Below, piece by piece: positions 55 to 5,461 of a DNA stretch of 5,461 nucleotides. Each line of letters begins with the position of its first letter. Positions within the stretch are counted from its first letter, which is position 1. The notes under the pieces were generated by a model. That model was given only the letters and a program-made list of their open reading frames with translations, did no database searches and was not told the origin of the DNA. The DNA is from Chloroflexota bacterium. GTDB lineage: Bacteria > Chloroflexota > UBA6077. The position numbers and the translations under genes are program-made. The stretch spans positions 1 through 5,461 of the forward strand of contig JAJZRD010000244.1 in the NCBI GenBank assembly GCA_021845945.1, written 5' to 3'.

Positions 55-1338
55 CTATTTCACCGGCATGACCAGGTTAGGCAGCCACAGGGACAGCTCG
101 GGAATGTAGGTTATGATCATCAGGGCGATCAGCAGCGCCACGATGAAAGGCCAGACCTCCTTCGCGAACTTCGCTATGGATATCTTCCCCAGGGCGCACA
201 CCACGTACATGACCATGCCGACCGGGGGAGTGATCGTCCCGATCATGATGTTCACTGTGAACACGACGCCGAACTGTACGGGGTCGATCTGGGCGTGCTG
301 GACCAGCGGCATCATGATGGGGATCGCCATGATCAGGACGGCGAGACCCTCCATGAACATCCCCAGGATCAGGAAGATGATGTTCAGGATCAGGTAGATC
401 TGCCAGCTGTCCAGGTTCGCGTTGGCGAAGAGCTCGAGCAGCTTGATGGGGGCTTGCTCGATAGTGAGCACCCAGGCGAAGGGCTGCGCCGCCGCGATGA
501 TAATCGCGATGGAGGCGGTGCCGATGGTGGACTCGACGATGATCCTGGGCAGATCCTTCAGCTTCAGCTCCCGGTACACGAAGAAGCCCAGGATGAAGGC
601 GTAGCCAGCTCCGGCGACGGCGGCCTCGGTGGGGGTCATGACGCCGCCAACGATGCCGCCCAGGATGATAGCAGGCATGCCCAGGGGCGGAATGGCCCGC
701 AGGGTAACCCTGGCCAACTCACCGCAGGCGGCTCGACGCTCCGCCGGGTAGTGGCGCCGTCTCGAGATCACGTAGTTGAAGATGATGAGCGTGATGCCCA
801 TTACCACGCCGGGGATGGCGCCCGCCAGCAGCAGACGGCCGATAGACACGTTGGCTATGGACCCGTAGATCACGAAGGGGATGGAGGGCGGGATGATGGG
901 GCCGATGGTCGCCGCTGCGCCCACGATGGCGGCCGCGTAGGGGACCGGATAGCCTGCGCTCTTCATGGCCGGGATCAGCACGCTCCCCGTGCCGGCGGCG
1001 TCGGCTACACCGGAGCCCGACATGCCCGCCATGATCATGTTGGTGACGACCACCACGTGGCCAAGGCCGCCGGTGATGTGGCCCACCAGGGCCTTGGCGA
1101 AGGTGACCAGCCGATCGGTGATACCGCCGGTGTTCATCAGGTTGCCGGCCAGGATGAAGAAGGGGATGGCCAGCAGCGGGAAGGTATCGATGCCGCCCAC
1201 CATCCGCTGGACCAGACCGTGGAGCGGCACATGGGGGCCGAGCGTCATATAGACGGCCGCTGCTGCCGCCATGGACCAGGCGATGGGGGTCCCGATGGCG
1301 AACAGCAGGATCAGCAGGACGAACAGGCCCGCCATCAT
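55..1338 (-). CDS. dctM: TRAP transporter large membrane subunit, DctM family
   Basis: 427 aa, full length for the family. This is the transport subunit of a Na+-coupled secondary transporter in the cytoplasmic membrane; it moves the acid released by DctP by an elevator mechanism, not ATP hydrolysis. Nearly the whole protein is hydrophobic helix. Motifs in order are FPLLAIPFFILAGNLMN (53-69), GMSGSGVADAAGTGSVLIPAM (105-125), ATIGPIIPPSIPFVIYG (143-159), GGVMTPTEAAVAG (231-243), GMFMEGLAVLIMAIPIMMPL (326-345) and IMIGTITPPVGMVMY (365-379). The paired GPIIPPS and GTITPPVG hairpins are the inverted-repeat elements that form the Na+ and substrate sites in known TRAP structures. The start ATG at 1338 overlaps the dctQ stop by 4 bp, and GGGGAGG lies 9 nt upstream. 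A second ATG follows at once (1335), so the true start may be one codon later. Confidence 0.96.
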   Translation of the reverse strand: MMAGLFVLLILLFAIGTPIAWSMAAAAAVYMTLGPHVPLHGLVQRMVGGIDTFPLLAIPFFILAGNLMNTGGITDRLVTFAKALVGHITGGLGHVVVVTNMIMAGMSGSGVADAAGTGSVLIPAMKSAGYPVPYAAAIVGAAATIGPIIPPSIPFVIYGSIANVSIGRLLLAGAIPGVVMGITLIIFNYVISRRRHYPAERRAACGELARVTLRAIPPLGMPAIILGGIVGGVMTPTEAAVAGAGYAFILGFFVYRELKLKDLPRIIVESTIGTASIAIIIAAAQPFAWVLTIEQAPIKLLELFANANLDSWQIYLILNIIFLILGMFMEGLAVLIMAIPIMMPLVQHAQIDPVQFGVVFTVNIMIGTITPPVGMVMYVVCALGKISIAKFAKEVWPFIVALLIALMIITYIPELSLWLPNLVMPVK

Positions 1339-1817
1339 GGTCGTTCGCCTCCCCTCATCAAGCTCAGGAAGTTGCGGCGGATGTCACTCAGCGAGTGCAG
1401 GACTATGAGGGCCGCCGACAGCGGAACGGCCAGGTACACCCAGTACTGGGGGATCTTCATCGTTGCGGTGGGCTGAGTGGCATAGGTCATGAGAACCCAG
1501 CCGAAATAGACCAGAGCCAGCATCAAGGCCATCGACACCGCGTCGGCCAGGAGATACATGAGGGACTGGACGCGCCTGGGCAGGACGACCAAGACGGTGT
1601 CGATGACGATGTGCTTCTTGTGCTTGGTCGTGAGGGCGGCACCTAAGAATACGAGCCAGATGAAGGCGTAGCGCGAGAACTCCTCGGCCCACTCGATAGG
1701 ACTGTTGAAGAAGTAGCGCAAAATGACGTTGACGAAGGTGGCCAGGGACATCAGGACGAGAAAGGTACCCGCCACCAGTTCCTCGAAGTTGTTCACCACG
1801 AAGCGAATCGCCTGCAC
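1335..1817 (-). CDS. dctQ: TRAP transporter small membrane subunit, DctQ family
   Basis: 160 aa, typical for the family, which has four membrane helices. Here they lie at about 12-36, 49-64, 83-110 and 123-143. Family features include NVILRYFFNSPIEWAEEFSRY (30-50), with the conserved Arg-Tyr and Trp-x-Glu-Glu, then KHKKHIVID (65-73), and QPTATMKIPQYWVYLAVP (115-132) before the last helix. DctQ packs beside DctM and helps dock the binding protein; it carries no transport path of its own. The start is GTG with a strong Shine-Dalgarno site. The stop TGA (1337-1335) overlaps the dctM start as ATGA, so the two proteins are probably translationally coupled and made in equal amounts. Confidence 0.95.
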   Translation of the reverse strand: MQAIRFVVNNFEELVAGTFLVLMSLATFVNVILRYFFNSPIEWAEEFSRYAFIWLVFLGAALTTKHKKHIVIDTVLVVLPRRVQSLMYLLADAVSMALMLALVYFGWVLMTYATQPTATMKIPQYWVYLAVPLSAALIVLHSLSDIRRNFLSLMRGGERP

Positions 1818-1825
1818 GTTTGACC

Positions 1826-1831
1826 ACCTCC
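1826..1831 (-). promoter_or_regulatory. Shine-Dalgarno site deciding the GTG start of dctQ
   Basis: The minus strand reads GGAGGT with an 8 nt spacer to the GTG at 1817-1815. This is a near-perfect match and supports the non-ATG start. Confidence 0.8.
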
Positions 1832-1840
1832 GGGATCGAA

Positions 1841-1870
1841 GGGGGTGGGACCGGGGTAGGTCCCACCCCT
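1841..1870 (-). promoter_or_regulatory. Strong hairpin between dctP and dctQ
   Basis: A perfect 11 bp stem, GGGGTGGGACC (minus strand, 1869-1859) with GGTCCCACCCC (1852-1842), closes a 6 nt loop TACCCC. Two more pairs (A-U, G-U) could form if the C at 1841 is bulged. It starts about 20 nt after the dctP stop and ends 10 nt before the dctQ Shine-Dalgarno site. No T-run follows. In transporter operons, a stable hairpin after the binding-protein gene commonly protects upstream mRNA or partly stops transcription, so the receptor is made in excess over the membrane subunits. I infer that role here. Confidence 0.7.
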
Positions 1871-1889
1871 CGGGCGTTTGACGATGCTG

Positions 1890-3020
1890 CTACTGAGCCT
1901 GCTTGACCTTGTCGACCAGATCCTGGCTGATCTGAGGCTGGAACTGCTTCCAGGCATCCTTGGTCTTGTCGGCCCAATCGGCCCTGTCGATCTCCGTGAC
2001 CACCATGCCCTTGGCCTTCAGGTCCTCGACGGACTTCTTGTTGTCGGCCAACTGCAGCTTGCTCTGGTACTCTCCCGCGTCGATCGCTGCCTGATCCAGG
2101 ATCTTGCGCAGCTCAGGCGACAGTCCCTGGTAGAACTTGTCGTTGATCAGCAGGAACTGGTGCTGGGTCATGTGTCCGGAAAGGCTCAGGTACTTCTGAA
2201 CTTCGTAGAACTTGTTGGTGTAGATGGTCTGTGCAGGGTTCTCCTGGCCGTCCACCACGCCCATCTGGAGGGCGCTGTACAGCTCCGCGAAGCCCATGCC
2301 GACCACGGAGGCGCCCAGGGTCTGTAGCGCCACCTTGTGGATCGGAGCATCCGGGGTGCGGATCTTCAGCCCCTTGACGTCCTCGGCCTTGACGACCTGC
2401 TTGTTCTTCGTGGTGAGATGGCGGAAGCCGTACCACCAGGAGTAGTCGAGGGCGCGGATGCCGCTGGTCTTCGTCGCACTCTCGGCGATGTCCTTCATCA
2501 TCGGGCTGCGGGCCAGCTTGATGAAGTTCTGGTACTGCTCTTCCTCGGTGTTGCCCTTCATGATGTAGGGCAGACTGAAGACGCCGATGGGCTCCCAGCC
2601 CTGGAAGGAGGCAACGATGGCGGCGCCCACGGTGGCCATCTGGGTCACGCCGCTCTTAACTTGCTCGGTGACGTCTTTCTCGGTACCGAGTTGGCTGTTG
2701 GGGTAGACGGTCACGGTGACCTGTCCGTTCGTCCGCTCCTTCACCAGATCGGCGAACTTGACGGAGCCCTTGTGGTAGTTCAGGTCGGTGTTAGCCGTGT
2801 GGCCGAGGCGGATCTCGGTCTTTGGGAAGTTGGTGGCGGGTTGGGCAGCGGCGGCCGGCGCCTTGGTGGGCTCGGCGGCCTTTGCAGGCTCGGCCGCTTT
2901 GGTCGGCTGGGCGGCCGGGGCGGCGGCAGGGACAGGTGCGGAACTGGAGCAGGCGGCCAGAATGGCGGTCGCCAGAAGGGCTGCGAGGACCACTGCAATC
3001 AAGCCGAGACGCTTCGACAT
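1890..3020 (-). CDS. dctP: TRAP transporter solute-binding lipoprotein, DctP family
   Basis: 376 aa. It captures a substrate, typically a carboxylate, outside the cytoplasmic membrane and delivers it to DctQM. Residues 1-24 form a lipoprotein signal: K3-R4, a hydrophobic core, and lipobox LAAC with the lipid-bearing Cys24. Residues 25-63 are a flexible tether of Ala, Pro, Lys and Glu with KAAEP repeats. The DctP domain begins near IRLGHTANTDLNYHKG (70-85) and includes YPNSQLGTEKDV (106-117), WWYGFRHLTT (195-204), GLKIRTPDAP (217-226) and ELYSALQMGVVDGQENP (246-262). Arg221 is the family's conserved arginine that pairs with the substrate carboxylate. Classical TRAP receptors are soluble periplasmic proteins of about 330 aa; the extra length here is the anchor and tether. 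The ATG at 3020 follows GAAGGGAG with 8 nt spacing. I see no convincing promoter in the 216 bp upstream gap, so it may be co-transcribed with the regulator. Substrate is not predictable beyond an organic acid. Confidence 0.95.
   Translation of the reverse strand: MSKRLGLIAVVLAALLATAILAACSSSAPVPAAAPAAQPTKAAEPAKAAEPTKAPAAAAQPATNFPKTEIRLGHTANTDLNYHKGSVKFADLVKERTNGQVTVTVYPNSQLGTEKDVTEQVKSGVTQMATVGAAIVASFQGWEPIGVFSLPYIMKGNTEEEQYQNFIKLARSPMMKDIAESATKTSGIRALDYSWWYGFRHLTTKNKQVVKAEDVKGLKIRTPDAPIHKVALQTLGASVVGMGFAELYSALQMGVVDGQENPAQTIYTNKFYEVQKYLSLSGHMTQHQFLLINDKFYQGLSPELRKILDQAAIDAGEYQSKLQLADNKKSVEDLKAKGMVVTEIDRADWADKTKDAWKQFQPQISQDLVDKVKQAQ
2862..2906 (-). repeat. Repeat-coded tether segment within dctP
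   Basis: This stretch codes residues 39-53, PTKAAEPAKAAEPTK, where the unit (P/A)-x-K-A-A-E-P is repeated. The coding DNA is accordingly a short imperfect GC-rich repeat. Such low-complexity linkers in lipid-anchored binding proteins space the domain from the membrane, and they vary in length between strains through slippage. Confidence 0.55.
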
Positions 3021-3236
3021 GAAAATGTCTCCCTTCCTCGAGAATCAGATGCTGTGTAGCAAGGCTGAGTTCGGTGGGAACCGGGGTGACAGTGTCGATG
3101 ACGCTCATATGGGGCTGACCAGGCCGGAATGCTCGGTAGTCGTCTCTCCCCCACTTCTAGAGCGAAGTTCAGTGCATCGTCGGAGACAGGGGTGGCGGAG
3201 GCCATCCAGCTGTTCACACGAGACAGCGGATGCCGA

Positions 3237-3926
3237 TCACAGCGGTCGGTTGGCTGTCAGTCTGTCAATGGACTCCCAGACAGCCTGGCGGCCAACGACC
3301 AGGTGACGAACCATGAGATCTCGCGCCAGGTCAGGGTCTCTCTGCCGAAGGGCCGTCGCGATCTGCATGTGCTCCCCTACGACATCATCGCCAGTGCTCA
3401 AGTCCAGCCGCAAGAAGTAGAGCCTATCTGTGTGCTCTATCAGCTGCGTCAGCACTTGAAGCATGCGGCGGTTGCCAGCTGCCTCGGCGATAATGCCGTG
3501 GAACTCCAGATTCTCGTCCAGATGATGTCGGTAGCTGCTGCGATCGCCGGGGTGGTAAGGCGAGCACAGTTGATCCAGGCGGTTAAGGGCGTCTTCGCAG
3601 ATTTGTGTCGCAGCCTTTTCGGCGGCTACTGCCTCGATGAGCAGGCGCATCTCAAAGATGTCGGCGACATCCTGTCGCGTTAGAGTGGAGGTCAGGTAAC
3701 CCACCCGCGGCCGGGCCTCGACCAGCTCGTCCCTCTGCAGCAGGGCCAGTACCTGCCTCAAAGGGGCCCGGCTCACGCCGTATCTGGCGCTCAACTGGCT
3801 CTCGTTCAGTCTCTCGCCCATCTCGAACACCCCATTGAGGATGTCGAACTTGAGCGCCTGGTACAGCTGCTTATTGATGGTGCCGTCGTGGGGTCTTGGA
3901 GAACCGCTCGTTGGAGCGAAAGACAT
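3237..3926 (-). CDS. GntR-family transcriptional regulator, FadR/FCD subfamily
   Basis: 229 aa, a usual length for this subfamily. Residues 16-80 form the winged helix-turn-helix: LYQALKFDILNG, then GERLNESQLSARYGVSRAP (recognition region about 43-60), then the wing ending near VGYLTS. Residues about 86-222 form the all-helical FCD ligand domain. It has the FH motif with H143, the AEAAGN motif (147-152), H186 (GEHMQI) and H208 (MVRHLV), the expected metal-binding histidines. The position four before H143, often Asp, is Asn139, a known variation in this family. FCD domains usually bind small carboxylates through a metal such as Zn2+ or Ni2+. The ATG at 3926 is supported by GGAAGGTG with a 10 nt spacer. 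The gene lies directly upstream of a TRAP transporter in the same direction, so it probably controls that transporter, and perhaps itself, in response to the imported acid or a derivative. Whether it represses or activates cannot be read from sequence. Confidence 0.93.
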   Translation of the reverse strand: MSFAPTSGSPRPHDGTINKQLYQALKFDILNGVFEMGERLNESQLSARYGVSRAPLRQVLALLQRDELVEARPRVGYLTSTLTRQDVADIFEMRLLIEAVAAEKAATQICEDALNRLDQLCSPYHPGDRSSYRHHLDENLEFHGIIAEAAGNRRMLQVLTQLIEHTDRLYFLRLDLSTGDDVVGEHMQIATALRQRDPDLARDLMVRHLVVGRQAVWESIDRLTANRPL

Positions 3927-4116: not shown

Positions 4117-5409
4117 CTACGCCGGGCGGTTCTTGCTCCCTTTGAAGAGGGCCTTGCCGGGCCAGCGGGCGGCTTTGCCCAACTCCTCCTCGATGGCCAG
4201 CATCCGGTTCTGGTCGCAGCCCCGCACCTGGCCGGCGTTCAGCCCCACGGCGAAGTCACCCAGACTGTCCAGGTCGCCCCGACTACCGCAGGGATGGACG
4301 TTGTAGCCGTTCAGCCGGCACGCCTCGGCCGCTTCCAGCGCCTCGCTGACGGTGCCCACCTGGGTGACCTTCAGCACCATGGAGTTGGCGGCACCGGCCG
4401 CGACCCCCTCCTGCAGTCGCCGGGCGTTGGTGGTGAACAGGTCGTCCCCCACGATCTCGATCCCCAGCTCTCGCGTGGCCAGGGCGTGACCCTCGAAGTC
4501 CTCCTCGTGGAAGGGGTCCTCGATGGAGAGGAGGGGATAGCTGGCCACGTGCTGCTGGTACAGCTTCAGCAGCTGGTCTCGGGTCTTCTCCCCCTCGGAG
4601 AAGAGGCCGGCGTACCGGTCGATCTCCGGCTCGTAGTAACAGCCGGCGGCCGCGTCGTAGTAGAGGCCGAGGCGGTCCTCCAGACCGCATCGGACGATGG
4701 CCTCGGCCATCAGCTCCAGGTACTCCCGGTCGTCTTTCAGGACCCCCGCCAGGTTCAGGCCGCTGGTGAAGACGGAGCTGATGCCGGAGTACTGCCGGAC
4801 GTTGTGGCCGTATTTCTTCTCGGCCAGGCGGCTCAACTCCCGATTCGCCCGCCAGCAGTCGTACATGGCGGCCGAGTAGCTGCCCGATCCGTAGCCGACG
4901 AAGTGGAAGCTGGGCTTGAACCAGCGGTCCTTGCCGGGGTCCCTGTAGCGGCCCGCGGACCCTCCGCCCACTATGGGTATCGGCAGGAGGCAGCCGTTGG
5001 GGCCCCCGATGTACTGGTAGAGGGGCAAACCGGCGCTGTTGGCGGCGGCCTTGAGGACCGCCAGGGAGACCCCGACGATGGCGTTGGCCCCCAGTTGCCC
5101 CTTGTTGGGCGTTCCGTCCAGCTCCCTCATCAGGGAGTCGATCTCCCGCTGGTGGGTGACGTCCATGTCCGCCAGGGCCGGCCCGATCACCCTATTGATG
5201 TTCTCGGCGGCCTTCAGCACCCCCATGCCCTCGTACCGCTCGCCCCCGTCCAGGACGAACTCGGCCTCGTACCTGCCCGTGGACACCCCTACCTCGGGCG
5301 TCGACGTGCCTGCCGAACCGTCGTCGGTGGTGACGGTGACCTGGAGCCGGACGTTGCCCCGCAGGGCGAACTCCTCCTTGGCCGTTACCCTCTGGATCTT
5401 CGCGCCCAC
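4117..5409 (-). CDS. Divergent enolase-family protein, probably not a glycolytic enolase
   Basis: 430 aa with a GTG start; classical enolases are about 430 aa. Residues 1-135 are clearly enolase-like: RGN at 17-19, STG at 43-45, GVLKAAENIN at 63-72, ELDGTPNK at 96-103 and LGANAIVGVSLAV at 107-119. In the barrel domain the three Mg2+ ligands are kept as D252, E297 (SIEDPF) and D322 (VGDDLFTTN), and the catalytic base as K347 (LKVTQVGT). Other active-site parts are gone. The NGGxHA loop reads GGGSAGRY (148-155). The QEF glutamate and the GDEGGF motif are not recognisable between 155 and 220. SHRSGETED is replaced by HPCGSRGDL (372-380). The GQIK lysine is R396, and the SRSERxAKYNQ segment is shortened. 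Family knowledge says these lost residues bind the phosphate or do acid catalysis in 2-phosphoglycerate dehydration, so I infer a different carboxylate substrate. In-frame TAG CGG TAG gives a double stop. Confidence 0.85.
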   Translation of the reverse strand: MGAKIQRVTAKEEFALRGNVRLQVTVTTDDGSAGTSTPEVGVSTGRYEAEFVLDGGERYEGMGVLKAAENINRVIGPALADMDVTHQREIDSLMRELDGTPNKGQLGANAIVGVSLAVLKAAANSAGLPLYQYIGGPNGCLLPIPIVGGGSAGRYRDPGKDRWFKPSFHFVGYGSGSYSAAMYDCWRANRELSRLAEKKYGHNVRQYSGISSVFTSGLNLAGVLKDDREYLELMAEAIVRCGLEDRLGLYYDAAAGCYYEPEIDRYAGLFSEGEKTRDQLLKLYQQHVASYPLLSIEDPFHEEDFEGHALATRELGIEIVGDDLFTTNARRLQEGVAAGAANSMVLKVTQVGTVSEALEAAEACRLNGYNVHPCGSRGDLDSLGDFAVGLNAGQVRGCDQNRMLAIEEELGKAARWPGKALFKGSKNRPA

Positions 5410-5410
5410 T

Positions 5411-5461
5411 TTAGCTTTCCTCCCCGCCGTACCGTTTGGGTATCAAGATGACTCGCAGATC
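5411..5461 (-). CDS. C-terminal end of an upstream gene (partial, product unknown)
   Basis: Read on the minus strand from the window edge, 16 codons stay open and end in TAA at 5413-5411, giving the tail DLRVILIPKRYGGEES. The stop is one base before the GTG start of the enolase-family gene, and that gene's Shine-Dalgarno site sits inside these last codons. This is the usual arrangement of two genes in one operon. A second minus-strand frame is also open across this short stretch, so the reading frame rests mainly on the stop/start junction. The tail is too short to assign a family, and no function is proposed. Confidence 0.5.
   Translation of the reverse strand, partial: DLRVILIPKRYGGEES
5419..5425 (-). 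promoter_or_regulatory. Shine-Dalgarno site for the enolase-family gene
   Basis: The minus strand reads GGGGAGG here, with 9 nt between it and the GTG at 5409-5407. It supports the GTG start, which also puts the conserved RGN motif (residues 17-19) at the same distance from the N-terminus as in classical enolases. Confidence 0.75.

Follow-up and report, generated by a model that had tools for sequence, protein, structure and literature searches.

An enolase-like gene in the stretch of Chloroflexota DNA analyzed here (5,461 nucleotides, hereafter the window) raises the question of what a protein does when it keeps the metal site and base lysine of enolase (phosphopyruvate hydratase, EC 4.2.1.11), a textbook single-substrate enzyme, but not the residues used for acid catalysis. 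The gene (4117..5409, reverse strand) is an intact frame of 430 amino acids, as the sequence-only reading of this DNA had stated, with a GTG start at 5409 and a Shine-Dalgarno-like stretch, GGGGAGG, upstream. Its product carries the Pfam domains Enolase_N and Enolase_C and has the enolase fold, with an N-terminal and a TIM-barrel domain. It falls outside the mandelate racemase/muconate-lactonizing (MR/MLE) subgroup, having Enolase_N instead of MR_MLE_N, with MR_MLE_C as a weaker secondary match of 34.9 bits. The TIGR01060 score of the window protein is 278.8, below the curated cut-off of 300, and three relatives score 304.4, 306.7, and 264.5 against the same cut-off.

We tabulated the active-site residues of the window protein against E. 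coli Eno (E. coli numbering), together with 120 homologues among the matches listed at 61–99% identity (family A, 8000 candidates scored), 120 homologues among the matches listed in a search seeded with a sister group (family B), and 15 ordinary enolases. As the sequence-only reading had proposed, the metal ligands D246, E290, and D317 are kept as D252, E297, and D322, and the base lysine K342 as K347; D246, E290, and K342 are present in 240/240 listed A and B homologues, and D317 in 239/240. The metal-II loop serine S42 (S43 in the window protein), absent from that reading, is likewise kept in all 240. In contrast to these five positions, the GGxHA histidine is replaced in 239/240 listed homologues (Y155 in the window protein), Q167 by proline in 240/240 (P166), and the acid residue E168 by serine or threonine in 240/240 (S167), while the HRS phosphate motif and its flanks, S369/H370/R371/S372, read C374/G375/S376/R377, with S369C, R371S, and S372R in all 240. 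The second lysine, K393, is arginine throughout the 240 (R396). The GDEGG loop with its acid residue E209 is lost in the window protein, where the E209 column holds G217 in a loop of unsure alignment; a motif scan of the 240 listed homologues found GDEGG nowhere, and Q[ED][FYW] in none within residues 131–200. Every tabulated active-site residue is kept in 15/15 ordinary enolases, and since the changes are uniform in the 240 listed homologues, they are a lineage-wide trait and reflect neither chance, decay, nor error. The losses that the sequence-only reading had listed (His-loop, QEF, GDEGGF, SHRSGE, and second lysine) are thus real and lineage-wide, and its suggestion of an altered substrate or chemistry in place of decay gains support from this uniformity. 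It had also pointed to residues 148–220 as the new active-site stretch; here, segment 154–166 does hold the new invariants R154, Y155, K165, and P166, which together with R377 and R396 are unchanged across a 47-row alignment, but residues 208–214 are poorly modeled and the surrounding stretch is variable.

The window gene is a member of a family of its own, found mostly in Chloroflexi. In a tree of 53 rows, family A (20 rows, window included) has support of 98/99, family B (18 rows) 100/100, and the split of A and B from ordinary enolases 100/100; support for family A becomes 94/98 once three odd rows (haloarchaeal and L110) are added. The prediction that homologues with the HPCGSRGD signature would form a clade of their own therefore holds, with the signature in 120/120 listed family A homologues; MPC[DSGN]SRGE occurs in 120/120 listed family B homologues, which include Lachnospiraceae/Clostridia besides Chloroflexi. 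Database names in both families, where given, are mostly enolase or phosphopyruvate hydratase. The distribution across the Chloroflexota samples is patchy, with A/B-level matches in at least 4 of 400 evenly drawn phylum genomes (three of them among the A/B genomes already identified; up to four candidates per genome scored). Of 15 genomes from a single family, 6 gave such matches. A strict motif scan of 396 genomes from a sample of one class gave matches in 10, seven of them family A in seven genomes; the matches in G412 (which reads HPCGRRGD), G801 (a chance match containing a stop), and G962 (no enolase-like frame) were rejected. The strict MPCESRGE pattern was found in 2 of 250 genomes of a Lachnospiraceae sample, one being the seed genome. 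In a single genome, G003, members of the two families lie adjacent and convergent (L139, 3–1451, forward, and 1535–3184, reverse). Separately, G001 encodes an odd, long-branched enolase homologue (L110 1501–2715 / L152 8929–10221) with SVRSGE, GAKFS, and FEDH motifs, which adjoins an arsenite-methyltransferase-like and an ArsR-like gene (named by eye) and has no kinase neighbor.

On the same (reverse) strand as the gene lie a GntR-family regulator with an FCD domain (3237..3926; PF00392, PF07729) and, by domain matches, the three parts of a TRAP transporter: the solute-binding protein DctP (1890..3020), the small permease DctQ (1335..1817), and the large permease DctM (55..1338). Upstream, 51 of the 52 bases preceding the enolase-like gene are taken up by the tail of a reverse-strand frame cut off at the window edge (5411..5461), consisting of 16 codons, DLRVILIPKRYGGEES, at 5461–5414 and a TAA stop at 5413–5411, with a single base (5410) before the GTG start. 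This frame is probably the C-terminal tail of a partner DUF4147/MOFRL kinase, judging from the C-termini of family A partner kinases (GDLRVILVL, GDLRVAVIH, GDLRVAVVL, and GDLRVAVVI); the call is well placed but short, as only about 7 of the last 16 residues, the visible part of the putative kinase, are comparable.

We therefore turn to the genomes of relatives, on which both the kinase-partner and the second-enolase tests were made. A DUF4147 glycerate-2-kinase-like gene adjoins, or shares a gene run with, the enolase-like gene in 20 of the 23 judged A/B loci. In family A, it lies upstream in L002, L004, L006, L153, and L201 and downstream in L145, L146, and L154; in family B, it is upstream in L139, L140, L141, L148, L151, and L155, downstream in L147 and L149, convergent in L142, and five or six genes off in a single same-strand run in L007, L008, and L200. 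All 20 partner genes match DUF4147, and both DUF4147 and MOFRL were found in 8/8 partner kinases run against the whole of Pfam. No kinase-like neighbor was seen in L143, in L150 (readable downstream only to about 800 bases), or on the only readable side, upstream, of L144. The judged set leaves aside L159 and loci whose contig is cut beside the gene (L001, L005/L158, the A copy of L003/L139, L220, and L066); no kinase lies on the readable downstream side of L001 and L005/L158, and the L066 fragment may be the opposite end of the gene in L201. As a control, an HMM built from the partner kinases and nine ordinary glycerate kinases matched in 15 of 19 A/B loci trimmed to flanks of about 1.5 kb. 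It matched in 0 of 71 ordinary-enolase loci, mostly archaeal, of which 46 had flanks of 2 kb or more at either end, and in 0 of another 38, drawn almost entirely from Chloroflexota, of which 32 had flanks of 1 kb or more at either end. The enolase-like gene thus usually travels with a diverged DUF4147/MOFRL kinase-like gene.

These kinases differ from the ordinary type. One strong, ordinary-type DUF4147 match (about 240–290 bits) is present in 11/12 genomes, the exception being G009, and weaker, diverged copies (106–161 bits, 26 in all) occur in 8/8 A/B genomes tested, against 0 of 4 tested family mates lacking A/B (nine such mates exist). Eighteen of the 26 are module partners; the other 8 are not, which counts against reading the pair as a module, and four of these non-partners, at L202, L203, and L204, have no enolase-like neighbor. 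At L203 two diverged kinases stand in tandem, and L204 is a 4.2-kb contig. Across the 18 partners compared, the GxGK lysine and GGRN are kept (GAAK in L007 and L008), SGGGS is altered in 15, and RKHL is changed in all 18, being RNH in eleven, otherwise changed in L142, L147, and L149, and lost in L002, L004, L006, and L153. As L142, L147, and L149 retain SGGGS/SGGGT, their kinases might still use glycerate. Distances among the enolase-like proteins track those among their kinases: over all 18 pairs, r is 0.61, a value reached in 0 of 5000 permutations; for the 7 pairs of family A, r = 0.95 (p = 0.0018), and for the 11 pairs of family B, r = 0.69 (again 0 of 5000 permutations). Part of this correlation could stem from linked inheritance alone.

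A similar pairing appears outside families A and B. A plasmid search matched 1114 records, all below 60% identity, and in two examined among the best 20 of these, from Haladaptatus and Halorubrum (NZ_CP120472.1, NZ_CP054586.1), a DUF4147 gene comes immediately after an annotated eno (L225 3992–6654; L226 3998–6649). These enolases cluster with ordinary enolases in the tree and keep E168, E209, R371, S372, and K393 intact, but read GGELA where the others have GGxHA, and SERSGQ where the others have SHRSGE, so that Leu and Glu replace the GGxHA histidine and H370, the two histidines of the C3 side; their kinases read TGGAS/TGGTS in place of SGGGS. As these enolases fall outside A/B, it seems that altered enolases have come to be paired with DUF4147 kinases on more than one occasion, in this case with intact phosphate residues. 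A mannonate dehydratase and an aldehyde dehydrogenase lie near the pair in L226. More tentatively, dedicated kinase–enolase pairs may have evolved repeatedly from glycerate kinase and enolase to process sugar-acid-like compounds, with C2 phosphorylation of an alpha-hydroxy acid, expulsion of a C3 group other than a simple hydroxide, and products of the phosphoenolpyruvate (PEP) type that could return the spent ATP, an idea we regard as possible but doubtful.

Other neighbors may bear on the nature of the substrate. An ABC transporter and a LarA-family gene are combined with the kinase–enolase pair in L007, L008, and L200, the binding protein being Peripla_BP_6 in L200 and of the urea/branched-chain type in L007. 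The three LarA-family genes belong to NCBIfam nickel-pincer isomerase group 22 (NF052515), and a further group-22 gene lies 6.4 kb from the family A gene in L005/L158. The LarA enzymes studied to date work on the C2 position of alpha-hydroxy acids (PMC7583248, PMC11770544), so that this linkage fits a C2-hydroxy substrate; group 22 was not seen named in the main text of the LarA papers, nor was any activity for it. L006 includes members of the DHDPS, MR-type dehydratase, ThDP enzyme, and HpcH/HpaI aldolase families (Pfam), of which the dehydratase and the ThDP gene also occur in L004 (by clustering). Arylsulfatase-family genes lie near modules in L145 (6878–8329) and L150 (2334–3938), both by NCBIfam, and in L002 (17098–18453), by clustering, and might hint at sulfated substrates. 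Four neighbor genes, one in L144, two in L143, and one in L151, gave no Pfam match.

Taking these observations together, we lean, with some reserve, toward reading the gene as one half of a kinase–enolase module that would catabolize an imported alpha-hydroxy acid distinct from glycerate. The separate family, the replaced acid-catalysis residues, and the usual diverged kinase neighbor argue that the window protein probably completes a catabolic route for a sugar-acid-like compound and does not serve glycolysis. In enolase structures, the residues kept here serve the carboxylate at C1, the two metals, and the base at C2, whereas those lost act on the C3 hydroxyl; combined with the kinase, this favors an acid that is phosphorylated at C2 and loses its C3 group without help from E168/E209. 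In the proposed sequence, the acid would be imported by the TRAP transporter (window) or an ABC transporter (some relatives), a LarA-type nickel isomerase would in some clusters set the C2 configuration, and the diverged glycerate-2-kinase-like protein would transfer phosphate to the acid, with the C2 oxygen as the probable acceptor. The enolase-like protein would then hold carboxylate and phosphate through two Mg2+ ions (D252/E297/D322 and the S43 loop) with R377, S376, and R396, K347 would take the C2 proton, and the C3 group would be eliminated without the E168/E209 acid machinery to give a PEP-type product. R154, Y155, and K165 may bind or protonate the new C3 group, and with P166, R377, and R396 would form a cationic site. 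Purely as a guess, 2-phospho-3-sulfolactate could be converted to PEP and sulfite, which would fit an anionic, good leaving group.

The sequence-only reading had instead favored an unphosphorylated substrate, and a dehydratase or epimerase that uses a single Mg2+ and takes sugar or hydroxy acids lacking a phosphate, with the kinase working at another step of the pathway (for instance, on glycerate arising downstream), is in our judgment unlikely without being negligible. The MR-type relatives perform the same chemistry without phosphate (cf. PMC6946804), and the non-phosphorylative sugar-acid enzymes in some clusters (MR-type dehydratase, aldolases) speak for this explanation and against the module, as do the loss of H370, the altered R371-S372 order, and K393R; the Ser-Arg exchange might itself abolish phosphate binding. 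The sequence-only reading had declared the phosphate-binding residues lost, which finds no support in that form, as the metal-II serine is invariant, Arg-Ser is reordered to Ser-Arg, and Lys393 has become Arg. Retained or reordered phosphate-site residues, phosphate residues kept in the haloarchaeal pair, and a kinase-like partner that is linked in 20 of 23 judged loci and co-diverging, even though 11/12 genomes already have an ordinary-type glycerate kinase match, leave the unphosphorylated substrate less supported. On our reading, in which the kinase would act on an alpha-hydroxy acid and the pocket for the C3 leaving group would have been rebuilt, the substrate is more likely to be phosphorylated, but different from 2-phosphoglycerate (2-PG).

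A working 2-PG enolase with a remodeled active site, serving a local route from glycerate through 2-PG to PEP with the neighboring glycerate kinase, seems improbable. The overall enolase fold, TIGR01060 scores around the cut-off (278.8 for the window protein, 264.5–306.7 for the three relatives), the kinase-like neighbor with SGGGS/SGGGT kept in three partner kinases, and the haloarchaeal pairs would suit it, but E168 is replaced and GDEGG absent in all 240 listed homologues, and SGGGS is altered in 15/18 partner kinases. Moreover, the sequence-only reading had asked whether the genome has a second, complete enolase, and in relatives one with QEF, GDEGG, SHRSGE, and IKTG is present in 8 of the 10 A/B genomes in this count, from which G414, G564, and G930 are excluded (G001, G002, G003, G006, G007, G008, twice, G009, and G389); G004 has it as a contig-end fragment, and none was found in draft genome G005. 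A non-catalytic or moonlighting paralogue, which the missing classical residues alone might suggest, is highly improbable given that conservation across the 240 listed sequences extends to the base lysine, to the metal ligands (with a single exception), and to the residues that replace the classical ones, and given the linkage to a kinase and, at several loci, transporters.

For the kinase–enolase module that we prefer, what is new is the invariant metal-II serine S43 and the linkage to a diverged DUF4147/MOFRL kinase-like gene: two related families annotated as glycolytic enolase have a uniformly replaced catalytic acid set and co-diverge with a kinase. The subgroup is real and consistent, and we found no description of it, nor of an enolase–glycerate kinase module, in the literature searched, which lay mostly outside subscription journals. 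If the module reading is true, enolase itself, and not just its MR/MLE cousins, radiates to new substrates, many database annotations would be corrected, and a catabolic strategy of Chloroflexi and some Lachnospiraceae, likewise without a description in the literature searched, would be revealed.

As the sequence-only reading had pointed out, recruitment of an enolase homologue may have a precedent in carboxyphosphonoenolpyruvate synthase of phosphinothricin biosynthesis. Compared with enolase (TIGR01060), the present proteins share the fold, both Pfam domains, the metal ligands, the base lysine, and the metal-II loop serine, and differ in the acid/leaving-group residues, the His loop, the SHRS order, the second Lys, and their separate clade. 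The enolase subgroup to which they belong is COG0148-like. The glucarate/galactarate route ends in glycerate kinase and enolase, with no altered enolase seen in that account (PMC11775122). In SAR202 Chloroflexi, a COG4948 paralogue expansion is reported to be nearly all of the mandelate racemase family (PMC6946804, PMC10444878); the MR/MLE sugar-acid dehydratases described there share superfamily chemistry, a sugar-acid context, and Chloroflexi paralogue expansion with the present family, which differs in lying in the enolase subgroup and in being paired with a kinase. The partner kinases, in turn, share with DUF4147/MOFRL glycerate 2-kinases (2b8n, 1x3l) their family, the GxGK lysine, and GGRN, and differ from them in SGGGS (15/18), in RKHL (18/18), and in occurring as extra copies beside an ordinary-type glycerate kinase.
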